From Dyella subtropica (lineage in GTDB: Bacteria; Pseudomonadota; Gammaproteobacteria; Xanthomonadales; Rhodanobacteraceae), in NCBI RefSeq assembly GCF_026283965.1, contig NZ_JAPDPD010000004.1, forward strand, positions 186,001 through 250,000: 64,000 nt of DNA, given 5' to 3'. The first letter of the stretch is position 1. Each line of letters opens with the position of its first letter. The position numbers were made by a program, and so were the translations under genes. Shown in pieces: positions 3,553 through 52,378 of this stretch. The notes beneath the pieces were generated by a model. It searched no databases and was not told the origin of the DNA. It was given only the letters and a program-made list of their open reading frames with translations.

Positions 3553-6500
3553 TCACAGGGTCTCGTTGAAGCGCTCGGTCATAAAGGCCGGCAAGGCGCC
3601 GCCCTCCGGCACCAGTAGCGTTTCAAGCGGGCTGTCGATCTGGGATGGCAGGCTTTCGAGCATGCGGATGAATTCCGACAACAGTTGCTCCGCTGCCTGC
3701 CGGCCGATGCGGCTGCGATCGTGGGTCAGGCGCAGGCGCAGTTGCGGCCCCGGCACCGCCATCACCACGATGGCGCGGTCGCTGCGTTCGACTGTGTCCA
3801 GTTCACTGATCCTCAAGCCGCCCGGCGGTGTTTCCAGTGACCCCGGCACCGGGTAGTTCTCGTAGACCAGCACGCTGTCGAACAGCGATCCGCCGGCCCA
3901 GGCCTGGATATGGGCCAGTGGCGTGGTTTCGTGACTGCGTGCTTCGTTGAAGGCGGTTTGCAGGGTGGGCAGCCAGTCGCGGACGGCGAGTTCGTCCGGC
4001 AGCCGGACGCGCACCGGCAATACGTTGATAAAGAGCCCGAGCATGTCTTCGATGTGCGGCAATTCCGCCGGACGTCCGGCCACGGTGGCGCCGAACACGA
4101 CGTCGTCGGATCCGGTACGCGCGGCCAGGCTCAGCGCCCACGCGCCCTGCACCAGGGTGTTGGGGGTGACGCCCAGCGCGCGGGCCAGCGCATCCAGCGC
4201 TGCGGTTGCCGTGGTCGAAAGCTGGGCCTCGGCATCGTGAAAACCGGTGCCATCGCCTTCGTCGCCCAGCAGTGGGCTATCGACCTCATAACCAGCCAGG
4301 GCGTGGCGCCAGTAGGTCTCGGAGCGTGCTGCGTCCTGCTGTTCCAGCCACTCGACATAGCTGCGCAGCAAGGGCGGCGGGTCCAGGCGCGCCTCATGGC
4401 CTTCGAGGCCGGCCTGATAGATCGCCAACACTTCGCGCACGGCGATCGCCAGCGACCAGCCGTCCAGTATCAGATGGTGATGGGAGACCGCGAAGCGCCA
4501 GGTCTCGCGATCCATGCGCAGCAGTGTCAAACGCAGCAGTGGCCCGTTCCGCAGATCAAAGCCGCTGGTGCGGTCCTCCGCCAGCACGGTAGCCGCCTCC
4601 AGCTGCCGCTCCTCGTCGACGAGATCGCTCAAGTCCCGTGTGATGACTGGCAAATCGGCCTCGGGCATCACCAGCTGCAGCGGTCCGGCGGGGCCTTCCC
4701 AGCTGAAGCGCGAGCGCAGGGCCTCATGGCGAGCGACCACAATGCGCCAGGCGGCGACAAACCCATCCACATCGAGCGGGCCGTCCAGCCGTCCCGTCAC
4801 CTGCTGCACGTAGGCGGTGGCATCGCGCCTGCGCAGTGATTCGACCAGGATGCCGTACTGCATCGGTGCCAGCGGGTACGTCGCCACGACGGGAGACCCA
4901 ACCGTTGCAGCGTGCCGCCCGGTGAGCGGGGCGATCATGCTGCGCAGCACGGCCGTGAAACGCTCCGCCAATCCTTCCACCGCGCCTGGCGGCAAGCGCT
5001 GCGCGGCATGCCGCCAGTCCATCTGGACACGACCGTCGACCACTTGCACGGTGATCTCCAGCGGCCAGCGCAGCGGGGCGCGGGGGCTACGCTCGGGCGG
5101 CGGTGCTTCCTTCGCTGCCCGGATGCCGAGAGTGGAAGGCGGCGCATCGAAACGGCCGAGGTAGTTGAACAGGACGTCGGCAATCGGGATGTCCCGCAAA
5201 GCCTCGCGGATGGCCGGCCCGGCCGCGCCCTGGCACAGCGATAGAAAGCCAAAACCGTTGCGCGGCACGCTGCGCCGCAGCCCTTTGACGGCAGCCACCC
5301 AGCGTTCCGGATCGCCTTCGCGCGGCAGTTCCAGCAGCACGGGAAACTGGCAGGTGAACCAGCCGACCGTGCGGCTGACATCCAGCTCGTCGTCCGCGCC
5401 ATCGCGGCCGTGGTGCTCCAGCTCCACCACCAAAGCTTCGCCCTCGGCCTGCTGGGCCACCGCGCGGGCCAGCACGGCCAGCAGGATTTCCTCGACGCTT
5501 GCACGATGAGTCCAGGGCAGGGTGTTCAGCAGGACGGCGGATTCGTCGCGTGACAACTCCACGGTGAGCATGCCGAGGTCCGCCAGGGTCTCCCCGGCAG
5601 GCGGGGAGGCCAGCCGGATCGCGCGCTGCCAGGCGCGGCTCAGCCACCATTCCGCCTCCTTGGCGAGTACGGTCGAGTCGCTGCGGGCGGCGGTCAGGCG
5701 GGCCCAGTCGCGAAATGCCACTGTCTTGGCCGGCAAGGCGACAGATCGTCCGGCGCTGAGTCCGTCCAGCAGGGTGGCCAGGTCCTCCAGCAGGATGCGC
5801 CAGGACACGCCATCGACGACCAGATGGTGTGCAGCCAGCAGCAAACGGTCGGGTTCCGCTCCGCCCAGCCGGTAGCGCCGCGCGATCAGCACCGGCCCCG
5901 CGAGAGGGTCGAGGGCGATCGCCTCGTCGATCGCGCGACGCAGGGCCTCCGCCTGTTCGTGATGCGGGATGGCCGCCAGATCGATGTCTCGGAACGAGGG
6001 TGCTTCATCATCCAGATCCAGGGCGACCTGCTCCAGGGCGATCTGTTCCCAGCCTTGCGCGCCCTTGCGGAAGCGATGGCGCAAGGCGTCGTGATGTTCG
6101 AGCAGGCGGGCCGTCGCGGCATGCAGCACCGCGCTGTCCACCGGTGTGTCGAGCGTCAGCAGCACTGCCTGGAGGAAGTGGCCGGGATCGACCGGATCGT
6201 CATCGAGGAACCAGTGCTGGATCGGCGTGAGCGGCGCCGCCCCCACGACCCGCCCCGCTTCCGCCGGGACGGAGGGACGCGGGGTCCCGGCGATGGCGGC
6301 AAGATCGGCCAACACGGGGTGATCGAGCAAGGTCCGTGCGCGGATCGATAGCCCGGCCCGCTGGGCGCGTGCAGCGATCTGGATGGCTAGGATGGAATCG
6401 CCGCCCGATTCGAAAAAGTTGGCCTGGCTGCCGGGCGGATCGATGCGCAGCACCTCGGCCCAGATAGCTGCCAATGTTTGCTCGGCGGCCGAGCGAATGA

Positions 6501-9500
6501 CTGCGTGCGAGTCCGGCGTTGCCGCGCCGGCTTCCGGCGGTTCCGCCAGTGCGAGGCGATCCACCTTCCCGTTCGGCAACTGGGGCAGAACAGGGAGCAC
6601 GCGGAACGAGGCAGGGATCAACGCCGCGGGCAAGCGCTCACCCAGGTACGCCTGGACCTCGGCCGGATCGACGGTCATGCCGGCCCTGGGCACGGCGAAT
6701 GCGACGAGACGCCGTTCGGCGTCCGTCGCGCCGCGCGTCACCACGGCGCAGGCGGCGATCGCCGGATGGCCAGCCAGCATCGCCTCGATCTCGCCCGGCT
6801 CGACGCGATGGCCGCGAATCTTCACCATGGCATCGATGCGGCCGAGGAAGACGAGCGTGCCGTCCGGCGCATGCTTGGCCCGGTCGCCCGTGCGGTATAG
6901 CCGGGCTCCGGGCACGGCGCTGAAAGGGTCCGGCAAGAAAGAGGCCGCCGTTTGCGCGGGCTGCCCCACATAACCGCGCCCGACGCCGGGCCCGCCGACG
7001 TACAGCTCGCCCTCGGCTCCCGGCGCAACCGGCCGCAGATGCCGGTCCAGCACATGCAGGGCGGCACCGGGAATCGGGCGGCCGATGGGTGTAGGCGCGG
7101 GACCCTGGTGCGCTGTGGCGTCGTGCACGCTGCACCAGACGGTCGCTTCGGTCGGGCCGTATTCGTTGAAAAGCCTGCCGCCCGCGGCGGCTCGATGGTG
7201 TGCCGGCAACTCGGATGGGCAGGTTTCCCCGGCAACCACCGCAACCCGCAATCGTGCCAGGGCCGAGCGCGACGCATGCTCCAGCAACAGCGCGTAAAGC
7301 GACGGAAGCGCCAGCAGGTGCGTTACGCCATGGTGGTCCATCAGTGCCGAGAGGCTGGCGATATCCGTCCGCGCGACGGCATCGGCGATCACCAGGGTGC
7401 CGCCGGTGGACAAAGTCCAGAACAGCCCGGCCACCGAACTATCGAAGGAAAAGGGCGAGAGCAGGAGGAAAACGGGCGGCTCTTCGCCATACACCGCGAG
7501 CCTCGCTTGGGTGGAGTGGACGGCGTTGCGGTGGGTGATGGCTACGCCCTTGGGGCGTCCGCTCGAACCCGAGGTGAAAAGTACATAGGCCGGCGTATCG
7601 AGGTTGAGCGGCGCCAGGACTACAGCGTCCGCGCAAAGACAAGCGTCTTCCAGCGCCAGCGCGGTCACGCCGAGATGGGCGAGCAGGTCGTCCAGCATGT
7701 ACCGCGCACCGATCACGATGCGGGCACCGCTGTCTTCCACCATCAAGGCGAGGCGGGCGGCCGGGTAGGCGGGGTCGAGCGGCAGGTACGCCGCGCCCGC
7801 CTTCAGCACCCCGAGGATGGCCACCACCATGTCCACGCCGTCATCGGAGCAGACCCCCACCACGTCCCCGGTCGCCATGCCCATGGCGCGCAGCCGGGCG
7901 GCCACACGGCCGGCAAGCTGGTCGAGCGTGGCGTAATCGAGGTGGCGCTCGCGGCAGATCACGGCCAGGCTCGCGGGCCGCGCCAACGCGTGCCGCTCGA
8001 CCAGGGCGTGCAGCGGCAGGTCCGGCACCGATCCTGCGCCGCAGCAATCGGGGGTGTCGACCACGGAAAGAGGACGATTCGCGGGCACGGAGATCGCCGA
8101 CATGCCACCGCCGGGGCCGGTGACCAGCGTTTCCAGCAAGGCGGCATAGCGGTCTTGCCAGGTGCGGATCTGGCCTTGCTCGAAGCGGCTGGGGTCGTAT
8201 TCCCACAGGCCGTCCAGGCCGGCATCGCTCAAGTTCAGATTGAGCACCAGATCGAGATGGTCGGTGCCGCGATCGAGGGCAACCGGCCGCACCTCCAGGC
8301 CGGGAAGCTCAAGCACGGGCGGCGGCACGTTTTGCAGCACCAGCTTCACCTGGAAGAGCGGCGGCCGGTAGGCATGGCGCGGAGGTTTCACGGCCGCGAC
8401 CAGTTGTTCGAAGGGCAGTTGCTGATGGGCGAGATCCTGTCGGATCGCAGCCGCGATCCGTTGCAGCAGCGCGTGGACATCGGGCTCGCCCGAGAGATCG
8501 CAGCGCAGCGGCAGCGAATTGATGAAGAAACCGATCAGGTCCTTGCTTTCCGGCAGCTCGCGCCCCGCCACATCCGTACCGATGACCAGATCGCTGGCGC
8601 CGCTGAGTTCCCGCAGCAGCAAAGCAAACCCGGCCAACAGGACGATGAAGGGGGTGACGCCTTCCCGTTGCGCGCATGCCGCGATCCGCGCATTCAGGGG
8701 CTGCGCGAGTGGTAGCACCGCCGAGCTGGTCGCCGGTCGAGTGCGCGGCCGAGCTGGCGCCAGGTCCAGTTCCGGCGGCGCTCCTTGCAGTCGTTCACGC
8801 CAATAGGCGGCGAGCGTCTGCCCCGCCTGTTGGTCCAGCAGGCGGCGCTGATGAACGGCGAGGTCGGCGTATTGCAGAGGCAAAGCGGGCAGGGTGGCTG
8901 TCTGTCCGGTGAGGGCGGCGGCGTAGAGCTCGCCCAACTCGCGGGTGAAAATGGCCGTGGACCAGCCGTCGGCGACGATGTGGTGCATCGTGATGATCAG
9001 CCAATGATGATCGTCGTCGAGGTGGAGCAAGCTTGTCCGCCACGGGGCATCGTGTTCGAGATCGAAGGGGCGGCCGGCCAGCTCCAGGGCAAGGCCGCGC
9101 GCACGCTCTGCACGCTTCGCCGGTGGCACGGCGCGGAGATCAAACAGCGGAAGGGATGGCGGATCGGTGATGACGGCGCGCTGGGACGGCGTTCCGTTCG
9201 TCACCTCGATCACCGTGCGCAGGACTTCGTGACGTTGCGAGATCGCGGCGAACGCAGCATTCAGCGCACCGGTGTCGAGCGGTCCGTGCAAGTCCAGAGC
9301 GTTCACCAGGACGAAGGCGGTGCTGAGCGGCTCGATCTGCTCCAGCGCCCAGAGGCGAAGCTGGGCAAACGAGAGCGGCAAGGGCTGGTCGCGCGGCACG
9401 GGCGCAAAGGCCGGCGCCGATGGCTTGGACCGTTCGGCTTCCAGCATCTGCGCCAGCGCCGCAGGGCTCGGGCTGGTCAGCAATTGCGCCAGCGGAAGAT

Positions 9501-12500
9501 GCACGCCCAGGCTCTCGCGCAGCAAGGCGGCCACGCGCAACGCAGCGAGCGAGTCACCGCCGAGTTCGATGAAATGGGAGTCGGGATGGACGGCTTCGAT
9601 ACCCAGCACCCGGCGCCACACCTCGATCACGGCATCCAGGGTGCTTTCGCGACGGGAAATGGCGGGGCTGGACGCGTAGGGATGGATGTCGCCCAGGCGT
9701 GGCGCGGCCCACTGCCTTCGGCGGGACTCGAAGTCTTCCGCCGTGCCGGACACGATGGCGAGACGACTGGGGGCCCCGCGCCGCAGAACAGAACGCAAGG
9801 CGACCATGCCCGTTGCGGTAGAGAGTCCCTTGCCGCCGCCCGTTAGCGGTTCGCCGGGGAATGCCCAGGCATCCCAGTCCAGCGTGATCCAGCGCGTGCC
9901 CGCCGTCTGGTCCAGTGCTTGCGCCAGTGCGCCGGCGGCCCGGTTGGCGGCTGCGTAGGCGGCGAATCCGGCGCCGCCGAGGGTGCTCGCCAAGGAAGAG
10001 AACACCAGCACGAAGCGGGGCGCCCGGCCCGCGTCCGCGACGGCGCGCAGCCCCTCCAGCTTCGGACGGGCATGCCGGTCCATGACCTCGCTGTCGGTGT
10101 CGGCAAGCAGGGTGAGGGACGCCGTGCCCGTGATGCCGGCGCAGTGGAAAACCCCGTCCACGGGGCCGAAGCACCGTTCGGCGCGGTGGAATGCTTCCTG
10201 TATCACCGCACTTTCGGCGGCATCGCCGATCACGCATTCCACCTGGACACCACGGGCCGTCAAGGCGGCGAGCCTTGCTCGCGCCTCGTTCTGTGGCGGC
10301 TGGCGGCCGAGCAGGATCAGGCGTGCCTGCACGCCATCCGCCAGCTCTTCGGCCAGACGCAAGCCGATCCGCCCGAAGCCACCGGTGATCAGATAAACCC
10401 CGCCGGTACGCAGCAGCGATTCCTCTTCGGTGGCGGTCCAGGGCTGGAAGGCCAGTTCATGGCATCCATCCGGGCGCAGCGCGAGTTCCGTCGACGCGGT
10501 CTCTGCGAGCAGCACGGCCACCAGGCGGTGGAACCACGGCGGCAACGCGCCCGCCTCGGCGGTGGACGCCTCCGTGGCGGGCAGGTCGATATGGCGGCGC
10601 GACAGCCACGGCAGCTCTTGCGGCAAGACCAGGGCCATGCCGGCGACCGCCGCCGCTGCCGGTTCCGGCCGATCCGTCGGAAGCAGTTTTTCCGCGCCGC
10701 GGGTAACCACGTCGAGATGGACGGGTCCCTGCCTGCCGGCCAGCTCTCTCATCGTGACCAGCAAGGCGGCAGCGTCCCCGCGCAGATCCACCACGCGATC
10801 CACTTCGGCGCCGGCCACCTCGACGCCGGTTTGGGCCTCGATCGCAGTCTGCCCGGGCAGGTCGGCGATGTGGCTGGCCAGTGCGCGGGCCAGGGCATCC
10901 TCGCCCAGGATCAGCCAGCGCTGCGTTTTTGCTGGCGCCGCCGCCGGCAGCGAAAGCGCCCGCCACACCGGTTGCATCGGTTGCCAGGCAGCGCGCTGGA
11001 CTGGCATAGCCGGCTCATCCGGGTCGATCCAATGGCGCCGCCGCTGGAAGGGGTAGGTGGGTAGCGCGATGCGGCGCCCGCGTCCGCCGTTAATGCCGGC
11101 CGCGTCGAGCGTGACGCCGGCCACCCACAGCCTGCCGCAGGCGCCCAGCACTTGCGCCGGCTCGTCGGTTCCGGGCCGCTCAAGGCTGCTGACCACAACG
11201 GCGTCGGCACCCAGGCGGCGCCGTGCCAGTGCGGACAGGGCGGTTCCCGGGCCGACCTCCAGCAGGGCGGTCGAACGGACGTCTTGCTGGAGCCGGGTCA
11301 GACCGGCGTCGAAGCGAACGGTCTGCCGTACATGCTCCACCCAATAGTCGACTGAGGTCGCTGCGCTGGCACTGATCCAGTCCCCGCTCAGGTTGGAGAG
11401 GTAGCGCAAGCTCGGTGCGTGCAACGGGATCGATGCGACCACGGCGCGGAAGGGCGCCAGGATGGGATCCATCAGTGCGCAATGGAAGGCGTGCGAGGTA
11501 GCCAGGTGCTTGGTGATGACGCCATCCGCGGTCAGCACCTCGGCCAGCTTCCGGATGGCCTCGCGAGTACCGGCGACGACGCATTGGCCCGGCCCGTTGA
11601 CCGCCGCGACATCCACCCCTGGCGACAGGCGTGCGCGCAGGGCGGCTTCTTCCATCGCTACGGCCAACATGGCGCCGGCCGGCGCGGTCGCCATCAGCCG
11701 GCCGCGTGCGGCGACCAGCTTCAAGCCGTCTTCGAGCGAAAAGACGCCAGCCAGGCAGGCCGCCACGTATTCACCGATGCTGTGGCCGATCATGGCGGCG
11801 GGGGCGAGCCCCCAGCTCATCCAGAGGCGGGCCAACGAATACTCGAAAGCGAATAGCGCGGGTTGGGCGATGGCGGTATCGCTCAAGCGGCTCATCGCCG
11901 CCGCATCGTCCCGCTCGCCCTGGAACAGCACATCGCGCAGATCCTGCCCCCACTCAGGCCGCAACGCCTCGGCGCAGGCGGCGAAGGTGTCGCGGAAGAC
12001 CGGCTCGGCGGCATACAGCGCGCGTCCCATGCCCGGCAGTTGCGAACCCTGACCCGGGAACAGAAAGGCCACTCGGCGCTCGGCGCAGTCATCGGTCCGA
12101 TGCCATTGGCGATCCCGGTTGCGCAAGGCCGCTACAGCATCCGCTGTGCCGGTACAAACCAGCGCCTGTCGGTGGGCGAACCGGCGCCGGCCGGACAGCA
12201 GCGTGTAGGCGACATCCGCCGGCTGCGTATCGGCGCGCTGTTCCAGGTACTGGGCCAGTCGGCCGGAGGCGGTGTCGAGCGCCTCCGCGGAACGGGCGGA
12301 GAGCAGCAGCAGGTGAGCGGGACGCTCGTCCCGTGCGGCCGACACCGCCGGGGGCTCTTCCAGTACCACATGAGCATTGGTGCCGCCGATGCCAAAGGAG
12401 CTGACCGCGGCGCGGCGCGTTGTCTCGCTGTTCCATGTCTGCGCCTGGGGGCAGATGAAGAAGCGCCCACGGTTCAGTCCGCTGTCCGGATGCGGCGTGC

Positions 12501-15500: not shown

Positions 15501-18500
15501 GCGCTGCCAGGCTCGTATCAGGTGCCGCGACGATTCCATGCAGCAACGCTTGGTATGAACGCAGCAGGTGCTGTGCCAAGCAGTCATCGAAGAGCAGCGC
15601 GTCGTAGTCGAGATCGAGACGCAAGGCGCCGTCGATGTCGGTGACGTTCAGATGCAAATCGAGCTTGGCAACGCTGACTGGCGTGGTGAGCGGTGTCAGA
15701 ACCAGGCCGTCCATCACTGGCGGATCGATGCGCCTTTCCAGGTTGAACGACACGTTGACCAGGGGCTGCCGACCTTGCCGGCGCGGCGGATTCACCGCAC
15801 GCACGATCGCCGCGAACGGAAAGCGCGCATGCTCGAAACCGTCGAGCAACTGTCGCCGCGCCGCTTTCAGAAAATCGGTCAGGCGCAGGGCAGCGGCATA
15901 GCGGCTACGCACCGGGAGCATGTTGGTGCAATGCCCGACCAGTCGCTGGGCATCGGGACCGGAGCGTACCGAGACGGGAACCCCCACCGTCAGATCCGCC
16001 TGCCCGGAGAGCCGGTGCAGCAACAGCGCGTAGGCGGCATAAAGCAGCATGAACAAGCTGCATCCTTGCTGCCGACCGAGATGTGCAACGGCTTCGTGCA
16101 GTTCCTTGTCGATCCACAAGCTGCATCGGCCGGAGGGTGCAGGCGCGGCGGCATCCTCGCCCTTGCTCACCGTGAGCAGTACGGGCTCGGGAGCGCCATC
16201 AGCGAAGACATGTCGCCAATAGTTTTCTGCGCTGGCGAAGGATGGGCCAGCCAGGTAATCGACTTCGTCGCGCAGGTAGTCGCGATAAGAGGCAGCGGGC
16301 TGTAGCGCTGCTGCCGCCGCACCGCAGGCGGCGGTGTACAAGACCGCGATCTCGCTCACCATCACGCCCAGGGACCAGCCATCCACCATGATGTGATGGA
16401 CCATCAGCACCAGCCAGTGAACCTCGTCTTCCAGCGTCAGGACGGTGACACGAAGCAAGGGTGCGCACGCAAGATCGAAGCGCTCGCGTTGCGCTTGCGC
16501 CACCCAGGTGCGTGCACGCGCTTCCGCTTCGCCGCCGTGGCTGCGCAGGTCGACGGACGACAGCGCAAAACTCGCCATGTCACCCGCAGTGGTTTGAGTC
16601 AGGCCATCGGGCGACAGCGCCGTACGCAGGGCCTCATGGCGCGCGAATAGCTGTTGCAGCGCCGTTTCCAGCTGGGGGATGCGCAGCCGGCCCTTGAGTT
16701 CAATGACCAGGCCCTCGTTGTACGCGACCGAGGCTTCGTCTCCCATCTGCGCGAGCAGCCAGAGTTGCCGCTGGCTTTCCGTGGTCGGAAATGCGTCGCC
16801 GGACGCCGCAGCGGCCATGGCGGGCCGCGGCAGACTGGCGGGCACCGTGGTAGCGGTGGCACCGATCAGTCCTACGCTGCGCAACTCATCGATGGAGTCG
16901 CGGAACGCATCGTGGATCCGATCGAGGTCTTCATCCGTGTGCGCAACCGAAAGAAAGCAATTGCGCGCTTCCCAGATATAGATGCCGCGATAAATGAGCT
17001 GGAAATAAAGCAGATCCAGATCGCCGGGGTATCGGAAGCGGAACAGCGATCCGAAATGCACCATACGGATCGGCAATTGATAGCTGTCGAAGAGGCTGTT
17101 CAATCGCGTGGCCAGCAGATCGGTTTTGCGATTGAGGTTTTCCTGCAACGCGGGGCCTTGCCGCTTCATTTCATCCAACACGGCCACGGCGGCCGCCATG
17201 GACAGTGGATGCTTGCAGAACGTGCCGCTGAAAAATGCGGTCTCGATGTCGCGCGGAAGGCTGTCGTCGCCAAAGGACCATTGGCCGCCGTCGACGAAAT
17301 CCATGATGTCGGCGCGTCCCGCGACCACACCGATCGGCAGGCCGCCGCCGAGGATCTTGCCGTAGGTGGCGATGTCGGCGTCCACGCCAAACCAGGCTTG
17401 CGCGCCGCGCGGATGATTGCGAAAGCCGGTGAGAACCTCGTCGAAAATCAGCACGACACCGCTGCCGCGGGTCAGCCGATGCAGCTCGCGGACAAACTCG
17501 CGGGGTTGCAATTCCGGCGAACGACTCTGCACGGGTTCCACCAGAACACCCGCCAATTCGTCCAGGTGTTCGGCGACCCAGGTCAGCGCTTTGGGGTCGC
17601 CATAATCGAGAACGATCACATCGCCGATCATGCCCGCCAGCACACCGGGAGAGAGCGGCACCGGCGCGTCGCCGCCCAGCGCGGACGCACGCGCAAGCAC
17701 GCCATCGAAGGTGCCGTGGTAAGACCCTGAGAACAGCACGATCCTGGAACGCCCGGTGGCGGCGCGCACGATGCGCAGAGCGGTCATCACCGCCTCGGTG
17801 CCGGAATTGACGAAGCAGGCCCGCTCCTTGCCGGTAAGGGCGCAAAGCGCCTCGGCGACGCGTCCGGCGAGTGGCGACTGCGGCCCGATTTGCGTCCCTT
17901 CGGCGATCTGCGCTTCGATGGCACGACGGATGAATGCCGGATTGTGGCCGAACAGATTGACGCCAAATCCCATCGTCAGATCGACGTATTCATGGCCGTC
18001 TACGTCCCAGAAACGCGAACCTGCCGAACGCTCTGCGGCAATCGGGTAGAGCAGTTCCTTGGTAGCCAGCCTGAGTCCGGCCACCACGCGATTGTCGGCG
18101 AGAGATGGGCGAAAGCGCTGGGCGAGCGCCTTCGATCCGGCGGTGCGGGCGTTGTAGCGGGCCGTGAAATCGGCGATCCACGCGCGCTGTTCCGTGGTGA
18201 AGTGACCGAGGCTGCGGTCTTTCACACGAAACGCCGGCAAGGCCGAAGCGGGGCGCGCACTGGTGTCGATCGCCGCGATCGCAGAGGGTTGGGCAACAGA
18301 CGCCGATGGTGCCGTGGCGTGTATCGCCGGTGGTGGCGAGGCATGTGTCGCCGCCGCGCCGCGCAGCACGGCAAGCTGTTCCGCCATCACGTCCAGTTGC
18401 CGCTGGAATAACTGCGCCAACGGTGCGGAGTTTTCGCCAGCGGGGATCGTCATGGAAGCGGACGCAGGAGCCGGGGCTGCGAGGTTCGCGGGTGCTGGCG

Positions 18501-20877
18501 GATGCTCCGTTGGGAGAATGCGATCGATATGCGCCACGATCGCGTTCAAATTGCCGTAGTCCTCGAAGATTTCGCGGATGGACAGTTGGACGCCGTAGAG
18601 ATCGCGAATGAGGTTGATCGCTTCCATCAGGACGATGGAGTCCGCGCCCAGCTCGAGGAACGGCGTCGAGGGATCGAAGCGATCCGACGTCGTCCCCAGC
18701 CATTTGGCCAGGGCCGAACGAAGGCGCTCCGTGATGGCGGCGGCGCGGTTGTTGCCAGCGGGCGCGATGAGGCTGGAAGACGTCTCAGTCGGGTTCATGG
18801 TGATCCAATGCCTGCGCCGTTCGAAGGGATAGGTCGGCAACGGAACGCGCCGACACTGCGGATAAAGGCTTTGCCAATCCGGCATGCCGCCAAGCAGGAC
18901 GTGCTCCGCAAGCTGGGCGAGCGCCGCTTTCCAGCTGTCTGTGTCGGCCTCCAGGGCGGGCAGCACGGTGCACTGCTCTATGGCCAGATCGCCCTTGCGC
19001 GGGGCGTGCCCACTGCGCACGCCCTCGGCCAGCGTTCCAGCGGCGAATGCGCGGAGCCGCTCGGCGAACGCGGCAAGGCTGGGCGCCACGACCGTCAGGC
19101 GGTGCTCGAACGGATTGCGCCCGACGCCGGCGGTGAAGCAGACCTCGGCCGGGTCGAGATCCGGATGGGCCATAAAATGGGAAGCGAAGCGTTCGGCCTG
19201 TGCCCTCAGCGCTTGATTGCTACGTGCGGACAGGCAAAGCAGATGGAGCGGAGGGCGGGGCACCTTGGCCGGCAAGGAGGCTTCCGCCGGCTCGCCGACG
19301 ACGACATGCGCATTGGTACCGCCGAAGCCAAAGGAGCTGACGCCAGCGATCCGGGGCTTCGCCGATGTCCAGGGCTCCGCGGCGGCGGTGAAGCGAAATG
19401 GCCGTTCAAATGGCCGTTCGTCCAGCCGCAAAGCCGGATTGAGGTTTTGCAGCAACGGCTGTGGCGGAAGGGTCTTGCGTGTCAGGGCAAGCAGGGTCTT
19501 GATCAAGCCGGCGATGCCGGCCGCGGCCTCCAGATGCCCAATATTGGCCTTGACCGCACCCATCGCACAGGGTTGTGCGGCGCTGCGTCCCTCGCCGAGC
19601 ACATCCGCGAAGGCGTTGAATTCGATGGGGTCGCCCAGCGGCGTACCGGTGCCATGGGCCTCGATATAGGACACATCGGCCGGCAGCACGCCCGCTGCGG
19701 CCAGTGCGGCGCGAAGCGTGCGCCGCTGGGCCTCGCCGCTGGGCGCCGACAGGCCGTTGGTCGCGCCGTCCTGGATCACAGCCGAGCCGAGCAAGAGTGC
19801 CAGCACCGTATCGCCATCGCGGCGGGCATCGCTCAAGCGTTTGAGCACAATCACGCCGCAGCCCTCGCCGCGACCATAGCCATCAGCCGCGGCATCGAAC
19901 GCTTTGCAGCGACCGTCCGGGGCCATCATCCCGGCGGCGCGCAGGCTGCGGGTGATATAGGGCAGCATCAGCAGGTTGACGCCGCCTGCCAGCGCCAGGT
20001 CGCACTCGCCCGCCCGCAGGCTGCAACACGCCAGATGTGTCGCCACCAGCGAGGACGAGCAGGCCGTGTCCACCGCTACGCTCGGCCCGTGCAAGTTGAG
20101 CAGGTAGGAGAGGCGATTGGCGGCGATGCTATGGGCATTGCCGGTGGCGACGTAGGCGCCGGCCGGCACGCCGCTTGTGACGCGCAACAAGGCATAGTCG
20201 ATGCCGCTGATGCCAAACCACACACCGCTGCGGCTGCCCGCAAGAGAGGCCGGTGCGATGCCGGCGTTTTCCAAAGCCTCCCACGCCACTTCAAGGGCCA
20301 ACCGCTGTTGCGGGTCCATATCCGCCGCTTCGCGTGCCGAGATGCCGAAGAAGCCTTCGTCGAATCCGTCAATCTCGTCGAGAAAGCCGGCCGGGGGATC
20401 GGTGTCCATCCATCCTTCGCCGAGCCGGCTGGAAGGAGCCGGCCGGATAGCCAGCTTCCCCTCGTGCAGCAGTTCGGCGAAGCCGCTCAGGTCCGGCGCG
20501 CCCGGAAAACGACAGGCCATGCCGACAACGGCCACAGGCTCCTGCGCAGGCACGACGCGCGTCTGGCTCGATCCGCTGGATGTTGCCGGCGCCGCGGCTC
20601 CCGTCAGGGCCGAAGCAAGTGCGGCAGGCGTGGGATGTTCGTAGATCAGCAGCGGAGAGACCTCGATGCCCAGCCGGTCCTCCAGGCGACCGCTGAGCTC
20701 CAATGCGTGGAGCGAGCCGAGTCCCAGCGAGGCGAAAGGCGCTTCGGCGTCCAGCTCATGCAGCGGATGGCCGGTCAGCTCCGCGATGCGCGCGAGAATC
20801 CAGTCGAGAAGGTTGCGGCGGTCGCCGGGGAGGGGGGCGAAAGAGGGCTCCTGAATGCGCTTATCTCGCGACGGCAT
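3553..20877 (-). CDS. Hybrid PKS/NRPS megasynthase with in-line aminotransferase (iturin-type)
   Basis: This is a 5774-residue assembly-line enzyme. Domain order with approximate residues: ACP (10-90), KS (110-530), AT-less linker (530-690), ACP (700-790), class III PLP aminotransferase (880-1335), C (1360-1790), A (1815-2305), PCP (2330-2400), KS (2420-2840), AT (2930-3260), KR (3290-3680), ACP (3750-3815), C (3830-4270), A (4280-4770), PCP (4790-4860), E (4880-5320), C (5330-5760). The frame stays open further upstream, but I chose MPSRDKR at 20877. The longer N-terminus would lie inside the acyl-ligase gene and looks like shadow sequence, whereas this start overlaps that gene's stop by 17 bp (coupled translation). 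The ACP-KS-ACP-aminotransferase-C-A-PCP order matches MycA/ItuA of mycosubtilin and iturin, except that their ligase domain is a separate protein here. An added PKS module and an E-containing module make it different from those systems. Modules are detailed in separate entries. Confidence 0.95.
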   Translation of the reverse strand: MPSRDKRIQEPSFAPLPGDRRNLLDWILARIAELTGHPLHELDAEAPFASLGLGSLHALELSGRLEDRLGIEVSPLLIYEHPTPAALASALTGAAAPATSSGSSQTRVVPAQEPVAVVGMACRFPGAPDLSGFAELLHEGKLAIRPAPSSRLGEGWMDTDPPAGFLDEIDGFDEGFFGISAREAADMDPQQRLALEVAWEALENAGIAPASLAGSRSGVWFGISGIDYALLRVTSGVPAGAYVATGNAHSIAANRLSYLLNLHGPSVAVDTACSSSLVATHLACCSLRAGECDLALAGGVNLLMLPYITRSLRAAGMMAPDGRCKAFDAAADGYGRGEGCGVIVLKRLSDARRDGDTVLALLLGSAVIQDGATNGLSAPSGEAQRRTLRAALAAAGVLPADVSYIEAHGTGTPLGDPIEFNAFADVLGEGRSAAQPCAMGAVKANIGHLEAAAGIAGLIKTLLALTRKTLPPQPLLQNLNPALRLDERPFERPFRFTAAAEPWTSAKPRIAGVSSFGFGGTNAHVVVGEPAEASLPAKVPRPPLHLLCLSARSNQALRAQAERFASHFMAHPDLDPAEVCFTAGVGRNPFEHRLTVVAPSLAAFAERLRAFAAGTLAEGVRSGHAPRKGDLAIEQCTVLPALEADTDSWKAALAQLAEHVLLGGMPDWQSLYPQCRRVPLPTYPFERRRHWITMNPTETSSSLIAPAGNNRAAAITERLRSALAKWLGTTSDRFDPSTPFLELGADSIVLMEAINLIRDLYGVQLSIREIFEDYGNLNAIVAHIDRILPTEHPPAPANLAAPAPASASMTIPAGENSAPLAQLFQRQLDVMAEQLAVLRGAAATHASPPPAIHATAPSASVAQPSAIAAIDTSARPASALPAFRVKDRSLGHFTTEQRAWIADFTARYNARTAGSKALAQRFRPSLADNRVVAGLRLATKELLYPIAAERSAGSRFWDVDGHEYVDLTMGFGVNLFGHNPAFIRRAIEAQIAEGTQIGPQSPLAGRVAEALCALTGKERACFVNSGTEAVMTALRIVRAATGRSRIVLFSGSYHGTFDGVLARASALGGDAPVPLSPGVLAGMIGDVIVLDYGDPKALTWVAEHLDELAGVLVEPVQSRSPELQPREFVRELHRLTRGSGVVLIFDEVLTGFRNHPRGAQAWFGVDADIATYGKILGGGLPIGVVAGRADIMDFVDGGQWSFGDDSLPRDIETAFFSGTFCKHPLSMAAAVAVLDEMKRQGPALQENLNRKTDLLATRLNSLFDSYQLPIRMVHFGSLFRFRYPGDLDLLYFQLIYRGIYIWEARNCFLSVAHTDEDLDRIHDAFRDSIDELRSVGLIGATATTVPASLPRPAMAAAASGDAFPTTESQRQLWLLAQMGDEASVAYNEGLVIELKGRLRIPQLETALQQLFARHEALRTALSPDGLTQTTAGDMASFALSSVDLRSHGGEAEARARTWVAQAQRERFDLACAPLLRVTVLTLEDEVHWLVLMVHHIMVDGWSLGVMVSEIAVLYTAACGAAAAALQPAASYRDYLRDEVDYLAGPSFASAENYWRHVFADGAPEPVLLTVSKGEDAAAPAPSGRCSLWIDKELHEAVAHLGRQQGCSLFMLLYAAYALLLHRLSGQADLTVGVPVSVRSGPDAQRLVGHCTNMLPVRSRYAAALRLTDFLKAARRQLLDGFEHARFPFAAIVRAVNPPRRQGRQPLVNVSFNLERRIDPPVMDGLVLTPLTTPVSVAKLDLHLNVTDIDGALRLDLDYDALLFDDCLAQHLLRSYQALLHGIVAAPDTSLAALPLLDSTTWQRQVVALNRTEATFPADEPLHRLIERQAASTPAADAVLSSNETLSFQCLDRRANHLAGKLVAMGVGPECRVAVCLGRQPDLIVALLAVLKAGGAFVPLDPLDPPARRAELVSDAGALVVVTTRPLAAAFTAVPVRLLCLQDEKQEAEAPPLVAVSPDNLAYVIYTSGSTGRPKGVMVPHRGLVNYLHWAADYYRVDQGHGAALHSSVAFDLTVTTLFVPLLAGRSIALTPAEQQGVEALYGSFELGGGFSFLKLTPAHLELLAAEPPASGLAGQTHALIVGGDQLLNRAVARWRSGAPGTRIINEYGPTETVVGCSVYEIAGDDPFDGAVPIGKPIANMQLYVLDQAMQPVPPGVVGELYVGGIGVARGYLNRPAATAERFVPDPFSCRPGSRLYRTGDRVRQRADDSWVYVGRVDHQVKVRGHRIEPAEVEAALVAHAEVAQAVVTVRGEDSARELVAYVVPANPAGVDVDVLRRHLEQRLPPAWIPAAVVLLAALPLTRNGKVDRALLPLPGPGKDALAAGADEQAMPFDTVERVSEAWRKVLGRTAAPNDNFFDVGGHSLQLPALRNQLSAAFDCPVSLLDLFRHPTIAAQARHFAAARPARPPAPTAASRPGGQDIAIIGMACRVPGAANLDAFRSNLESGRVSVTELDPVRLRAGGVDEDRLRDPHYVKRVGLLDGVEGFDAEFFGFTPSDAALTDPQHRLLLECAWESLENAGIDPDRCGRPVGVFAGSALNTYLLFNVLKSRQTLADADARSVALANDKDFLATRVSYKLNLHGPSLTVQTACSTSLVAVHMASRSLRDGECDMALAGGVALRLPQEAGTLWQEGGIESPDGHCRAFDAEAAGTVFGNGVGVVVLKRLADALADGDTVYAVIKGSAINNDGAAKLGFTAPAVEGQAAVIEAALRDSGLAGSDIGYVEAHGTGTQLGDRVELEALRTALGESGTPCAIGSVKANIGHLDTAAGVVGLIKTALILSSGRLPPQPEFRTPHPDSGLNRGRFFICPQAQTWNSETTRRAAVSSFGIGGTNAHVVLEEPPAVSAARDERPAHLLLLSARSAEALDTASGRLAQYLEQRADTQPADVAYTLLSGRRRFAHRQALVCTGTADAVAALRNRDRQWHRTDDCAERRVAFLFPGQGSQLPGMGRALYAAEPVFRDTFAACAEALRPEWGQDLRDVLFQGERDDAAAMSRLSDTAIAQPALFAFEYSLARLWMSWGLAPAAMIGHSIGEYVAACLAGVFSLEDGLKLVAARGRLMATAPAGAMLAVAMEEAALRARLSPGVDVAAVNGPGQCVVAGTREAIRKLAEVLTADGVITKHLATSHAFHCALMDPILAPFRAVVASIPLHAPSLRYLSNLSGDWISASAATSVDYWVEHVRQTVRFDAGLTRLQQDVRSTALLEVGPGTALSALARRRLGADAVVVSSLERPGTDEPAQVLGACGRLWVAGVTLDAAGINGGRGRRIALPTYPFQRRRHWIDPDEPAMPVQRAAWQPMQPVWRALSLPAAAPAKTQRWLILGEDALARALASHIADLPGQTAIEAQTGVEVAGAEVDRVVDLRGDAAALLVTMRELAGRQGPVHLDVVTRGAEKLLPTDRPEPAAAAVAGMALVLPQELPWLSRRHIDLPATEASTAEAGALPPWFHRLVAVLLAETASTELALRPDGCHELAFQPWTATEEESLLRTGGVYLITGGFGRIGLRLAEELADGVQARLILLGRQPPQNEARARLAALTARGVQVECVIGDAAESAVIQEAFHRAERCFGPVDGVFHCAGITGTASLTLLADTDSEVMDRHARPKLEGLRAVADAGRAPRFVLVFSSLASTLGGAGFAAYAAANRAAGALAQALDQTAGTRWITLDWDAWAFPGEPLTGGGKGLSTATGMVALRSVLRRGAPSRLAIVSGTAEDFESRRRQWAAPRLGDIHPYASSPAISRRESTLDAVIEVWRRVLGIEAVHPDSHFIELGGDSLAALRVAALLRESLGVHLPLAQLLTSPSPAALAQMLEAERSKPSAPAFAPVPRDQPLPLSFAQLRLWALEQIEPLSTAFVLVNALDLHGPLDTGALNAAFAAISQRHEVLRTVIEVTNGTPSQRAVITDPPSLPLFDLRAVPPAKRAERARGLALELAGRPFDLEHDAPWRTSLLHLDDDHHWLIITMHHIVADGWSTAIFTRELGELYAAALTGQTATLPALPLQYADLAVHQRRLLDQQAGQTLAAYWRERLQGAPPELDLAPARPRTRPATSSAVLPLAQPLNARIAACAQREGVTPFIVLLAGFALLLRELSGASDLVIGTDVAGRELPESKDLIGFFINSLPLRCDLSGEPDVHALLQRIAAAIRQDLAHQQLPFEQLVAAVKPPRHAYRPPLFQVKLVLQNVPPPVLELPGLEVRPVALDRGTDHLDLVLNLNLSDAGLDGLWEYDPSRFEQGQIRTWQDRYAALLETLVTGPGGGMSAISVPANRPLSVVDTPDCCGAGSVPDLPLHALVERHALARPASLAVICRERHLDYATLDQLAGRVAARLRAMGMATGDVVGVCSDDGVDMVVAILGVLKAGAAYLPLDPAYPAARLALMVEDSGARIVIGARYMLDDLLAHLGVTALALEDACLCADAVVLAPLNLDTPAYVLFTSGSSGRPKGVAITHRNAVHSTQARLAVYGEEPPVFLLLSPFSFDSSVAGLFWTLSTGGTLVIADAVARTDIASLSALMDHHGVTHLLALPSLYALLLEHASRSALARLRVAVVAGETCPSELPAHHRAAAGGRLFNEYGPTEATVWCSVHDATAHQGPAPTPIGRPIPGAALHVLDRHLRPVAPGAEGELYVGGPGVGRGYVGQPAQTAASFLPDPFSAVPGARLYRTGDRAKHAPDGTLVFLGRIDAMVKIRGHRVEPGEIEAMLAGHPAIAACAVVTRGATDAERRLVAFAVPRAGMTVDPAEVQAYLGERLPAALIPASFRVLPVLPQLPNGKVDRLALAEPPEAGAATPDSHAVIRSAAEQTLAAIWAEVLRIDPPGSQANFFESGGDSILAIQIAARAQRAGLSIRARTLLDHPVLADLAAIAGTPRPSVPAEAGRVVGAAPLTPIQHWFLDDDPVDPGHFLQAVLLTLDTPVDSAVLHAATARLLEHHDALRHRFRKGAQGWEQIALEQVALDLDDEAPSFRDIDLAAIPHHEQAEALRRAIDEAIALDPLAGPVLIARRYRLGGAEPDRLLLAAHHLVVDGVSWRILLEDLATLLDGLSAGRSVALPAKTVAFRDWARLTAARSDSTVLAKEAEWWLSRAWQRAIRLASPPAGETLADLGMLTVELSRDESAVLLNTLPWTHRASVEEILLAVLARAVAQQAEGEALVVELEHHGRDGADDELDVSRTVGWFTCQFPVLLELPREGDPERWVAAVKGLRRSVPRNGFGFLSLCQGAAGPAIREALRDIPIADVLFNYLGRFDAPPSTLGIRAAKEAPPPERSPRAPLRWPLEITVQVVDGRVQMDWRHAAQRLPPGAVEGLAERFTAVLRSMIAPLTGRHAATVGSPVVATYPLAPMQYGILVESLRRRDATAYVQQVTGRLDGPLDVDGFVAAWRIVVARHEALRSRFSWEGPAGPLQLVMPEADLPVITRDLSDLVDEERQLEAATVLAEDRTSGFDLRNGPLLRLTLLRMDRETWRFAVSHHHLILDGWSLAIAVREVLAIYQAGLEGHEARLDPPPLLRSYVEWLEQQDAARSETYWRHALAGYEVDSPLLGDEGDGTGFHDAEAQLSTTATAALDALARALGVTPNTLVQGAWALSLAARTGSDDVVFGATVAGRPAELPHIEDMLGLFINVLPVRVRLPDELAVRDWLPTLQTAFNEARSHETTPLAHIQAWAGGSLFDSVLVYENYPVPGSLETPPGGLRISELDTVERSDRAIVVMAVPGPQLRLRLTHDRSRIGRQAAEQLLSEFIRMLESLPSQIDSPLETLLVPEGGALPAFMTERFNETL
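3600..4900 (-). other. C-terminal condensation domain without its own A domain
   Basis: The domain has PLAPMQYGI and HHHLILDGW and lies directly after the E domain, so it should be a D-accepting (DCL-type) condensation domain. The protein ends at FNETL shortly after it. Its acceptor A-PCP pair is at the start of the next protein, so the two proteins must dock here. No obvious COM-type docking helix is seen by eye. Confidence 0.82.
4920..9400 (-). other. Module 4: C-A-PCP-E, D-configured residue
   Basis: The C domain has HHIVADGW. The A domain has LFTSGSSGRPKG, NEYGPTE and YRTGDR. Pocket residues read by eye are D-S-A-L-V-G-E-V-W, which I do not recognise as a code for a particular residue. 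The PCP has FFESGGDSILA, the GGDS form typical before epimerization domains. The E domain has HHLVVDGVSW (His near residue 5018), EHHGRD, TVGWFT and FNYLG, all present, so it should be active and deliver a D-aminoacyl chain. Confidence 0.85.
9430..13630 (-). other. Module 3: KS-AT-KR-ACP, one reduced malonyl extension
   Basis: The KS has TACSTSL (Cys near residue 2591), EAHGTGT and KANIGH. The AT has FPGQGSQ and GHSIGEY (Ser near residue 3033); its SHAFH motif is the pattern usually seen with malonyl-CoA. The KR has a Rossmann motif (ITGGFGRIG), the Ser region FSSLAS and AAYAAAN with the catalytic Tyr, so it looks active. There is no DH or ER. The ACP has IELGGDSLAAL. The expected result is one C2 unit reduced to a beta-hydroxy group on the preceding amino acid, a statine-like gamma-amino-beta-hydroxy acid. 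KR stereotype is not assigned: no LDD motif is visible. Confidence 0.86.
13690..16800 (-). other. Module 2: C-A-PCP, predicted Asn (or Asp)
   Basis: The condensation domain has HHIMVDGW and would couple the beta-amino fatty acid to the first amino acid. The A domain has IYTSGSTGRPKG, NEYGPTE and YRTGDR. Pocket positions read against GrsA are D235 L236 T239 K278 V299 G301 E322 V330 G331 plus the invariant Lys. DLTK...G is the hallmark of Asp/Asn activation; E322 and V330 are closer to the Asn code (DLTKLGEVGK) than the Asp code (DLTKVGHIGK). The PCP has FFDVGGHSLQL. Iturins also carry Asn directly after the beta-amino fatty acid. The alignment was made by eye. Confidence 0.8.
16870..20877 (-). 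other. Module 1: ACP-KS-(no AT)-ACP-aminotransferase, beta-amino fatty acid formation
   Basis: The N-terminal ACP (GLGSLHALEL) would receive the fatty acyl-adenylate from the neighbouring ligase. The KS has VDTACSSS (catalytic Cys near residue 273), EAHGTGT and KANIGH, so it should elongate with malonyl. After the KS the usual linker is present (LSARSNQAL, VGRNPFEHRLTVVA) and so is the post-AT tail (PLPTYPFERRRHW), but the roughly 300-residue AT between them is missing. The second ACP has LELGADSI. The aminotransferase shows NSGTEAV, IFDEVLTGFR and YGKILGGG, whose Lys (near residue 1174) should bind PLP. By analogy with MycA it converts the beta-keto acyl-ACP to a beta-amino acyl-ACP. Malonyl loading must come in trans. 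Confidence 0.88.
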
Positions 20878-22555
20878 TGAAGGCCCCGGACATATACCGT
20901 TCGCGACACGCGTGGCGACGCACCTTGCCGCTGGTGGTGCGCGGCAGTTCGCCGAAGCGCAGAAACACAAGATCACGCAATGGCAGTTCGTGATTGACCG
21001 CGATAGCCTCGCGTGCGGCGATCACCACACTCTCGGTTCGCACCGCTTTGCGCTCGCATTCGATGGCTACTATCAGCCGTTCGGCGCCATCGAGTTCGAC
21101 TGAGAAAGCCGCGCAAGCGCCGGGGCGAAATGAGGAGTGCGCTTGTTCCAGCGTGCGCTCGATATCTTCCGGATGATGGTTGCGCCCATCGACGATGATC
21201 AGATCCTTGAGCCGGCCGGCCAGATACAGTTCGCCGTCCCACAGGGCGCCCAGATCGCCAGTTCGCAGAAAGCGTTGGATTGTCTCGCCCACCGGCAACG
21301 TCGCGAAGTGCGCGCCATGCTCGGCAATACCCCAGTAGCCTTCCGTGACGCTGGGACCCGAAAGCCAGACTTCGCCAATATGGCCTGGCGGCAATGGGCG
21401 TCCGCTCTCCGGATCGGCGATGACGATCTGGTGCTTGGGTTGGGGCGATCCCGATGAAACCAGGGGCACGCCGAGATCACCTGCCGGCGCATCGCGGAGC
21501 AGGCCATGGGCGAAAGCCGTCGAATCGGCTGTGCGTTGGCGAGGGCCATGGAGGCGCTGTCCAGCGGCCGCCATCAAGGTCGATTCGGCCAATCCGTAGC
21601 AGGGGAAAAAAGCTTCGTGCCGGAAACCGTGCGGCGCGAATACCTCGGCGAAGCGGTCCAAGGAACCCGACCGAACCGACTCTGCACCATTGAATGCCAG
21701 CTCCCAGCAAGACAGGTCCAATGCCGTGCGTTCTTCCGGCGTGGTTCGCCGCACGCAGTACTCGTACGCGAAATTCGGGCCACCACTGGTATCGATCCGA
21801 TAGCGTGAGATGGCCTGCAGCCAGCGAACAGGGCGTTGGAGAAAGGTGGCCGGAGCCATCAGCCAGCATGTGCTACCCATCGCGGCTGGATAGAGAATCG
21901 TCCCGATCAGGCCCATGTCGTGATAGTGGGGCAACCACGTCAACATGCGTTGATCAGGCCCCAGCTTTACCACCCGGTTGAGCACCTCGAGATTGGCGGA
22001 CACATTGCTGTGCCTGATCATCACGCCCTTGGGTGCGCCAGTCGATCCGGAAGTGAACTGCAAAAAAGCCAGTTCCTCTGCGGTATGCCGGCCTTCCGTC
22101 CAGCCCGCCGCGAAGGCTTCGGAAATGCCATCGGTAGCGAGGCAGGGGAGCGCCGCCTCTATCGATGTCAGCGACTCGGCCAACGCTGCGGTGGTCAGCA
22201 GCAGTGTTGGCTCGCACGCTACTGCGATAGCGCTCAAGCGTTCCCGCGTCGGTCGATGGCTTTGCGATGTATGCGGAGCTGGCGCAGGCACGGCGACTAC
22301 GCCGGCATAGAAACAGGCGAACAGCGCAACGATGAAATCCAGCCCAGGCGGATAAACCAGCAGCGCACGATCTCCCCGGGCAACGCGGTCTTGCAGAATG
22401 GCAGCGAGTGCGCGTGCACGAAGGTCGAGTTTGCCGTAGCTGAGTTCTCCACTCTCTTCAATACGGCTGTTTAGAGCGATGAAAGCAGCTCTTTCAGGAG
22501 CCACAGCGGCCCAGTGACGCAATCCGGTGATGGAATCGAAAATGGGGCAATCCAT
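20861..22555 (-). CDS. Fatty acyl-AMP ligase (FAAL)
   Basis: This is a 564-residue acyl-adenylating enzyme of the FAAL branch. Motifs in order are FTSGSTGAPKG (P-loop), HYHDMGLIG, GGPNFAYEYC, CYGLAEST, RTGDLGAL, GRLKDLIIVDGRNHHPEDIE and a C-terminal TSGKVRR. HDMGLIG and the DGRNHHPEDIE form are typical of FAALs rather than acyl-CoA ligases. It should activate a fatty acid and hand it to the ACP at the N-terminus of the megasynthase, which overlaps its stop by 17 bp. The start chosen is MDCPIFDSITG, which gives a normal N-terminus. An in-frame GTG at 22645 would add 30 residues of low-quality sequence. No clear Shine-Dalgarno precedes either start. Confidence 0.93.
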   Translation of the reverse strand: MDCPIFDSITGLRHWAAVAPERAAFIALNSRIEESGELSYGKLDLRARALAAILQDRVARGDRALLVYPPGLDFIVALFACFYAGVVAVPAPAPHTSQSHRPTRERLSAIAVACEPTLLLTTAALAESLTSIEAALPCLATDGISEAFAAGWTEGRHTAEELAFLQFTSGSTGAPKGVMIRHSNVSANLEVLNRVVKLGPDQRMLTWLPHYHDMGLIGTILYPAAMGSTCWLMAPATFLQRPVRWLQAISRYRIDTSGGPNFAYEYCVRRTTPEERTALDLSCWELAFNGAESVRSGSLDRFAEVFAPHGFRHEAFFPCYGLAESTLMAAAGQRLHGPRQRTADSTAFAHGLLRDAPAGDLGVPLVSSGSPQPKHQIVIADPESGRPLPPGHIGEVWLSGPSVTEGYWGIAEHGAHFATLPVGETIQRFLRTGDLGALWDGELYLAGRLKDLIIVDGRNHHPEDIERTLEQAHSSFRPGACAAFSVELDGAERLIVAIECERKAVRTESVVIAAREAIAVNHELPLRDLVFLRFGELPRTTSGKVRRHACRERYMSGAFNAVAR

Positions 22556-22678
22556 AATCGCATCGGTGAGGTGAACAGGCGAAAGAGAGGAACGCGCACA
22601 TAAAGTGGAGCCTGCCGTTGCAAGCAGACTCCACGTTGTTTTCACAATGTCGCGCGCAGGATCCGCGATTGCACCGCG

Positions 22679-30655: not shown

Positions 30656-30981
30656 GTAGGTTCCCGCTGCGCGCATTGGGGCCCGGCTGGACGAAGAACT
30701 CGCCGGTTCAGCGCGTGCCCGTTCGGGCAGGGTGGCAGTGACCGTCGCCCCCTGCGAGCGGTCTTGTGCTCGATGTATATCGTTATCGCTGCGGCGGCGT
30801 GAAGTGCGTGGTTGTGGTCAATAAAGGGGATTGACAATAAGGGGGCAGAGATATTTTCTTGGAAAAAATAAGGTGCAACAAATGTCTCTGAGCCCTTATT
30901 TGCTAGACCCCTTATTTACTAAAGCGCCCACAATCGCTCGACCGCTCGGAAGCGCGTGTCGAACTCCACCTGGAAGGCAAC
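30656..30981. other. Divergent intergenic region with a REP-like palindrome
   Basis: This region separates the minus-strand 1193-aa gene from the plus-strand HNH gene, so it should hold two outward promoters. The only clear structure is the palindromic element at 30836-30901. Confidence 0.5.
30836..30901. repeat. REP-like palindromic element, copy 1
   Basis: The left arm AATAAGGGGGCAGAGATATTT and the right arm AAATGTCTCTGAGCCCTTATT are inverted with few mismatches around a spacer rich in A and T. It ends about 80 bp before the HNH gene. A second, more degenerate copy lies at 32069-32132. This type of AAGGGG(T/G)CAGAGA palindrome resembles REP/RAYT-type repeats of proteobacteria. Confidence 0.65.
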
Positions 30982-45150: not shown

Positions 45151-45165
45151 GCAGGGCTGCAGCGG

Positions 45166-45192: not shown

Positions 45193-45244
45193 ATTTCAAC
45201 CGGATGAACAGCTTCGGTGCCGATCACGATCGGCGGGCGAAGAC

Positions 45245-52334: not shown

Positions 52335-52378
52335 CGACTCGCACCCATTCTTCTTTCACGCCCTTCGGATGCCTGCCA

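Follow-up and report, generated by a model that had tools for sequence, protein, structure and literature searches.

In the iturin family of lipopeptide synthetases, which includes those of mycosubtilin (MycA) and bacillomycin (BamA), a fatty acyl-AMP ligase (FAAL) is fused to a megaenzyme that bears an aminotransferase (AMT), and the acyl carrier protein (ACP)-ketosynthase (KS)-ACP core of this enzyme lacks an acyltransferase (AT). These lines function with an AT in trans, and their rings hold seven amino acids. Here we describe a line that has in common with them the AT-less ACP-KS-ACP core, a FAAL, the AMT and Asn in first place with an identical adenylation (A) code. It lies in a 64,000-nucleotide stretch of Dyella subtropica DNA (the window), positions 186001–250000 of contig C41 in a 4.95-Mb genome, where two long minus-strand open reading frames (ORFs), a FAAL gene and then a polyketide synthase/nonribosomal peptide synthetase (PKS/NRPS) gene, fill positions 3553–22555.

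Three other systems invite comparison. The microsclerodermin route uses an aminotransferase and a monooxygenase (MOX), then Asn and subsequent PKS modules (PMC6163206; this and the other papers are cited from excerpts). The msc line resembles ours in its β-amino acid, Asn, later PKS and NRPS modules, epimerase and thioesterase (TE), and differs in a starter made by several PKS modules, an AMT accompanied by a monooxygenase, an Asn unit present as a pyrrolidone, sarcosine and γ-amino-β-hydroxybutyric acid (GABOB) (PMC12559470). Sarcosine separates its Asn-derived pyrrolidone unit from Trp, and the notion that a D-residue directly follows the Asn unit in microsclerodermin was dropped because sarcosine comes first (PMC12559470). 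The puwainaphycin (puw) line has a separate FAAL and a hybrid protein with a PKS module, an aminotransferase and an NRPS module, but differs in the reducing and methylating module of PuwB and in a monooxygenase (PMC4219810). In anabaenolysin, which we compared by structure and not by genes, a β-amino fatty acid is joined to a 4-amino-3-oxy acid (AOFHA) and two Gly; the β-amino acid beside such a unit and the Gly in the ring recall our prediction, whereas the extra hydroxyls, the lactone, the Gly-Gly pair and the four-residue ring do not (PMC3400675).

The whole line reads FAAL / ACP-KS-ACP-AMT-C-A1-T-KS-AT-KR-ACP-C-A2-T-E-C / A3-T-C-A4-T-C-A5-T-TE, with C for condensation, T for carrier, KR for ketoreductase and E for epimerase. 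As far as sequence can tell, the plan of a β-amino lipopeptide synthetase is present in full: a ligase start, a KS, an embedded class III AMT, NRPS modules and a TE. Five A domains and one PKS extension after the AMT do not correspond to the seven-amino-acid iturin ring, and the iturin lines have no PKS module after Asn. We consider it probable that this line is complete and colinear, that its product is a cyclic lipopeptide which is exported and probably glycosylated, and that the front end of the line derives from a cis-AT module whose AT was lost.

The 594-aa FAAL product carries Pfam AMP-binding and DIP2-like, FAAL-type C-terminal domains, and its closest Protein Data Bank match is 7r7e, followed by 3kxw and FadD32-type FAALs. 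The PKS/NRPS start at ATG 20877 overlaps the FAAL stop, both start codons having been picked by eye. A second NRPS (3067 aa) opens at 3530, 22 bases past the end of the PKS/NRPS gene, leaves the window at its left edge and runs 5.7 kb further in the adjoining contig sequence. No stop or frame break interrupts the 5.8-kaa (kilo-amino-acid) PKS/NRPS or the 3.1-kaa NRPS. Scanned against Pfam in two halves, the 5807-aa protein gave two KS matches, one AT, a KR, a class III aminotransferase, two AMP-binding domains, five carrier stretches and four condensation matches, one of which is the epimerase; domain order and coordinates (Table 1) come from hidden Markov models (HMMs) made from the window's own domains and one relative. 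The active-site motif is DTACS in KS1 and QTACS in KS2, with EAHGTGT common to both, HHxxxDG is intact in C1, C2, E, C3 and C5, and the TE has GHSFG. From its GHSIG and HAFH motifs we take the AT of module 2 to be of malonyl type. The AMT aligns with the solved MycA domain 6kfm across 412 residues (E 2.7e-143).

Much of the initial annotation is borne out by these data. The succession of FAAL, ACP-KS-ACP-aminotransferase and C-A(Asn) is confirmed by ORFs, Pfam, HMMs and motifs, the ligase has an ORF of its own, the added KS-AT-KR-ACP module is found by both Pfam and HMM, Asn is indicated by a first code shared with BamA, and a D-residue module is indicated by trees that put E into an 18-member clade of E domains and the following C3 among DCL domains (FastTree, long branches flagged).

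KS1 runs straight into ACP2 with no AT between them. Alignment with four cis-AT relatives shows that the KS-AT linker, the post-AT linker and the stretch right after the AT are kept and that the AT is absent. With the module's own AT gone, ACP2 would have to be charged in trans. A KS stands directly ahead of the AMT in 68 of 88 related loci, and an AT is present in 55 of these; the 13 AT-less loci comprise 10 from Bacillota, two from Streptomyces, whose gaps of 872 and 1152 residues may be misread, and one from Nocardia, and none of the 68 is both AT-less and Gram-negative. The Nocardia suismassiliense locus (L125) has an AT-less KS-ACP-AMT with a 286-residue gap, and in the KS tree it does not fall in the clade of the Bacillota.

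In that tree of 78 rows, whose trans-AT references are the Bacillota iturin KSs only, KS1 falls within starred sets of 3, 10 and 24 rows and the Bacillota KSs stand apart. Nearly all members of these sets are KSs with a cis-AT, although the 24-row set includes the AT-less Nocardia KS. Approximately unbiased (AU) tests reject a single clade of KS1 with the 10 Bacillota KSs (log-likelihood (lnL) 82.3 lower, p 0.0013) and one of the FAAL with Bacillota (lnL 63.4 lower, p 1.7e-6; 25-row tree). The tests support the view that KS1 and the FAAL are not kin of the Bacillota iturin lines and that, as regards these two domains, the AT-less layout arose a second time. AMTs of the window's family (f1), including one from its genus (G001), fall in one clade with a Pseudoxanthomonas (Lysobacteraceae) AMT and also with Burkholderiales ones, which agrees only indirectly with the Lysobacterales origin proposed in the initial annotation.

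Alternatively, the line might be a genuine member of the iturin family that came from Bacillota and was altered later by splitting off the ligase, losing a C-ACP and inserting PKS and D-residue modules. The same AT-less ACP-KS-ACP-AMT core, the identical Asn code and a large subunit that terminates in a C domain, as BamA does, would fit such an acquisition. We nevertheless regard it as very unlikely: besides the two rejected clades, what remains beyond the site of the missing AT can be aligned with cis-AT relatives, and the line has no malonyl transacylase gene of the FenF/BamD kind as a neighbour, whereas an AT lies upstream in 9 of the 10 Bacillota loci. BamA, which has three C domains and four carriers by Pfam, also bears an extra C-ACP between the AMT and C-A(Asn) that is absent here; the unbroken C-ACP-C-A occurs in eight of the 10 Bacillota loci, with frame breaks in one (L048) and no such stretch seen in another (L064). 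The order attributed to MycA/ItuA in the initial annotation thus holds for ACP-KS-ACP-AMT, but what follows is not quite as in BamA. Since kinship of KS1 and the FAAL is rejected, most iturin lines have the extra C-ACP and the linkers are kept here, "iturin-type" is apt as a name for the AT-less plan and not for descent. The iturin-like front end seems to have arisen at least partly by domain loss and not by inheritance; the AT would have been lost from a cis-AT module of the type found in cyanobacteria and Gram-negatives.

Which AT might charge ACP2 can be considered from the 13 AT matches of the genome. Beyond the cis-AT of module 2 they comprise a FabD-sized protein (contig C11), PKS-sized frames and two domains in a tandem AT-AT-PfaD protein (C41, 116.7–120.4 kb), the second of which exceeds the FabD cut-off. 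The AT-AT-PfaD protein belongs to a trans-AT PKS cluster (C41:116697-153315; L140, L141, L005) in which it is accompanied by a 10.9-kaa frame, with seven KSs, no AT and a terminating C-A-T-TE at 153.3 kb, and then by a P450. A phosphopantetheinyl transferase (PPTase) gene lies nearby at 157.5 kb, and a gap of 27 kb separates the cluster from where the lipopeptide NRPS ends. The module-2 AT, FabD and the AT-AT-PfaD protein are candidate donors for ACP2. That the AT-less module draws malonyl from the AT-AT-PfaD protein, so that one AT would serve two lines and the front-end layout of the iturins would have arisen twice, is a tentative and rather doubtful proposal. Elsewhere in the genome (C6:90885-119429) a 10,865-aa frame with seven AT domains looks like a cis-AT modular PKS.

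The AT deletion could instead have ended chain extension, leaving a decayed line that makes nothing or a product without the β-amino unit. The cluster holds no AT for module 1, and among 232 other genomes of the family (233 with its own) the closest AMT, from an AMT-MOX line (G019), is 55% identical; with no family AMT above that value there is no conserved orthologue to show use of the line. Yet both large proteins are free of stops and frame breaks, their catalytic motifs are present (C4 slightly altered), the genome offers other AT sources, and iturin lines work with just such an arrangement. Decay seems to us quite unlikely, and the line looks intact, ordinary in kind and unusual in its AT loss and residue order.

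Substrate codes were read from an alignment of the A domains with A4, in which the motifs yield the Thr code, and a second time with relatives added; the two alignments differed in the sixth letter of A5, giving C and then G, of which G suits the motif. The A1 code DLTKIGEVGK is identical to the first code of BamA, which assigns Asn. Nine of the ten letters of A2, DSALVAEVWK, match DSALIAEVWK, a code placed among those for His (PMC12283262) and carried by the two nearest A domains in the set (45% and 44% identical), so that the residue is likely His, delivered as D-His. A4 (DFWNIGMVHK) and A5 (DILQLGMIWK) have printed codes assigned to Thr and Gly (PMC12283262).

If the line is active, the FAAL would adenylate a fatty acid and load ACP1, KS1 would extend the acyl chain by one malonate carried on trans-charged ACP2, and the AMT would convert the β-keto group to a β-amine. 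C1-A1 would then attach Asn, and KS2-AT-KR would add and reduce a malonate to give a 4-amino-3-hydroxy acid of statine type that bears the side chain of Asn. D-His would come from C2-A2-E and X, Thr and Gly from the second NRPS, and the TE would free the product, most likely by cyclization onto the β-amine as in the iturins. The predicted product is a cyclic lipopeptide of a β-amino acid, an Asn-malonate hydroxy acid, D-His, X, Thr and Gly. With a C14 β-amino acid the calculated mass of the ring is 678.41 Da plus residue X, which for X = Asn would give an [M+H]+ of 793.46. The Asn-malonate unit of this same line could also be a γ-lactone, formed with loss of NH3 (calculated [M+H]+ 776.43 for the same ring), in place of the open amide. 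AOFHA of anabaenolysin has such a ring (PMC3400675) and, as we read it, may derive from Asp or Asn; it carries an additional hydroxyl, however, and we saw no dedicated enzyme here, which makes the lactone possible but on balance unlikely.

Asn plus a PKS unit after a β-amino acid has precedents in microsclerodermin and in a Thiotrichaceae metagenome-assembled genome (MAG) cluster, and in anabaenolysin as a structure. The Thiotrichaceae cluster (L065 and L131), extended to KS-AT-AT / ACP-AMT-C-A(Asn)-ACP / KS-AT-KR-ACP / C-A(Thr)-ACP-C-A(Gly)-ACP-TE, has in common with the window the ACP-AMT-C-A(Asn)-ACP and KS-AT-KR-ACP parts and the Thr-Gly-TE end; it resembles our line minus the two middle modules (D-His and X), with 23–54% identity over ten domains. 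It differs in KS-AT-AT matches upstream of ACP-AMT in another frame and in having no FAAL within the 60.9 kb read. To our knowledge, puwainaphycin has no Asn-PKS unit. A PKS module after the first NRPS module past the AMT occurs in at least five of 79 loci, a lower bound given flanks of at most 10 kb. Two of them have a KR, L054 with a Ser code and L065 with an Asn code; L073 has an Asn code and is cut off by its contig end; and no KR was seen in L077, with a code we take to be β-Ala-like, or in L099, with an Asn code. Extended, L099 appears to resemble the microsclerodermin line. Compared with the microsclerodermin type, our line shares the Asn and PKS module, yet it lacks a MOX and contains a KR; that a PKS module without KR marks this type is based on the look-alike L099 and not on the msc genes. 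A separate FAAL is also found in cyanobacterial loci (L051, L054, L055, L057, L069, L093) and in one from Chloroflexota (L060).

Close kin were sought widely by AMT identity alone. After an earlier set of the own genome and 40 relatives, the best AMT in a wider contig search was 60% identical (best 80 of 581 matches, 79 loci) and the best plasmid match 56%. The full module order was seen in no line whose architecture was read, few of the family matches (L015-L020) having been read past about 1.5 kb of flank. One line in the same family (L015, G019:C6) reads FAAL-ACP-KS-AT-ACP-AMT-MOX, C-A, unlike that of the window. The initial annotation knew of no described product with these units in this order. 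The Asn and PKS pairing has the precedents above, but among described products we met none in which an Asn-derived hydroxy acid stands immediately before a D-residue, nor any matching product, in the open-licence literature searched, a weak negative.

After the second NRPS come a glycosyltransferase, an asparagine synthase, a racemase-like gene and an exporter on the opposite strand. The glycosyltransferase exceeds the Pfam cut-off for UDPGT and falls below the NCBIfam cut-off for macrolide-type MGT; the asparagine synthase exceeds that of TIGR01536; the racemase-like protein exceeds that of Asp_Glu_race in Pfam, with the NCBIfam racemases below theirs; and the exporter exceeds that of TIGR01194 (cyclic peptide export). 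Glycosylation and export of the product may be the tasks of these genes.

Several observations weigh against the account preferred here, of AT loss in a complete and functional line. Of the 13 AT matches in the genome, only module 2's own lies within the cluster. A clade of the AMT with Bacillota scores lnL 6.4 above the free tree (p 0.61, 94 rows), and the AMT tree topology was dropped as an argument against iturin descent after this test; a clade of C1 with Bacillota is not rejected either (p 0.17; 67 rows, nine from Bacillota). Part of the front end could therefore be iturin-derived, as Bacillota acquisition would have it, and the AU tests are weakened because their groups were chosen once the KS and AMT trees had been seen. 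The A3 code DARHLALMTK matches none of the printed codes compared, the nearest being DPRHLALLAK ('AMA', spelled out there as α-aminoadipic acid, to which we give no weight) and DPRHVSLLAK (Asn) (PMC12283262), so the residue is left as X; the closest solved structure (LgrA) was uninformative for its substrate. C4 has HHLVSDA, which deviates from HHxxxDG. C5 falls in a DCL-type clade (FastTree, long branches flagged) although the Thr module has no E, so that residue stereochemistry may differ from the prediction. Finally, relatives of the downstream genes are scarce in 83 related loci and four longer stretches (E 1e-20: glycosyltransferase 1, Asn synthase 2, racemase-like 0, exporter 1), and their membership of the cluster rests on position.

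Table 1. Features of the lipopeptide line, in window positions unless a contig is named
Feature	Position	Strand	Basis or remark
Stand-alone FAAL	20861..22555	-	likely ATG 22555; ORF opens at GTG 22645
PKS/NRPS	3553..20877	-	5774 aa from ATG 20877; 5807 aa from GTG 20976
ACP1, putative acceptor of acyl chain from FAAL	20599..20811	-	HMM
KS1, AT-less module	19180..20544	-	Pfam, HMM, KS tree
Fused KS-AT and post-AT linkers at missing AT	18736..19179	-	alignment: 4 cis-AT relatives, 3 Bacillota lines
ACP2	18520..18735	-	HMM
Class III AMT, predicted β-amination, MycA-like	16882..18156	-	Pfam, HMM, structure match
C1	15472..16794	-	Pfam, HMM, C tree
A1, DLTKIGEVGK (Asn)	13945..15420	-	code alignment
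T1	13675..13878	-	HMM
KS2	12259..13626	-	Pfam, HMM, KS tree
AT of module 2	11077..12075	-	Pfam, HMM, motifs GHSIG and HAFH
KR	9859..10401	-	Pfam, HMM, GGxGxxG; Ser-Tyr-Asn read by eye
ACP3	9436..9642	-	HMM
C2	8071..9384	-	HMM
A2, DSALVAEVWK	6547..8016	-	code alignment
T2	6286..6486	-	HMM
E	4927..6258	-	HHLVVDGVSW motif, E clade
C3, DCL type, serving next module (A on second NRPS)	3604..4881	-	HMM, C tree
Second NRPS, first 1176 aa	1..3530	-	A3, T3, C4, beginning of A4
A3, DARHLALMTK	1932-3497		code alignment
T3	1665-1871		HMM
C4	264-1598		HMM
Second NRPS, remainder outside window	contig C41 180327-186000	-	most of A4 (Thr), T, C5, A5 (Gly), T, TE
C5, ahead of Gly module	contig C41 183036-184352		DCL-type by tree

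Just upstream of the FAAL ATG, on the same strand, lies a twelve-pair hairpin (22605-22634); terminator-like matches in the region number two, under the shuffled mean of 3.5. Elsewhere in the window, a 715-aa pentapeptide-repeat protein adjoins an ORF of 1200 aa for which Pfam gave no match at E 0.01 (24972-30676). Two-partner secretion adhesin-like proteins with YDG/MBG repeats, a ShlB-type transporter and a passenger-associated-repeat protein occupy 39433-54055 and 60162-63998, and beside the adhesins are two adjacent Porphyromonas-type peptidyl-arginine deiminase family proteins (54173-57342), the first of which matches in two stretches.

If the account given here is true, the line would make a likely new cyclic lipopeptide scaffold, in which an Asn-derived statine adjoins D-His, and would be a natural example of a cis-AT module turned AT-less. 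Such a conversion would bear on the way in which ATs that act in trans are recruited by lines foreign to them, and on where an AT can be excised with the linkers unharmed.

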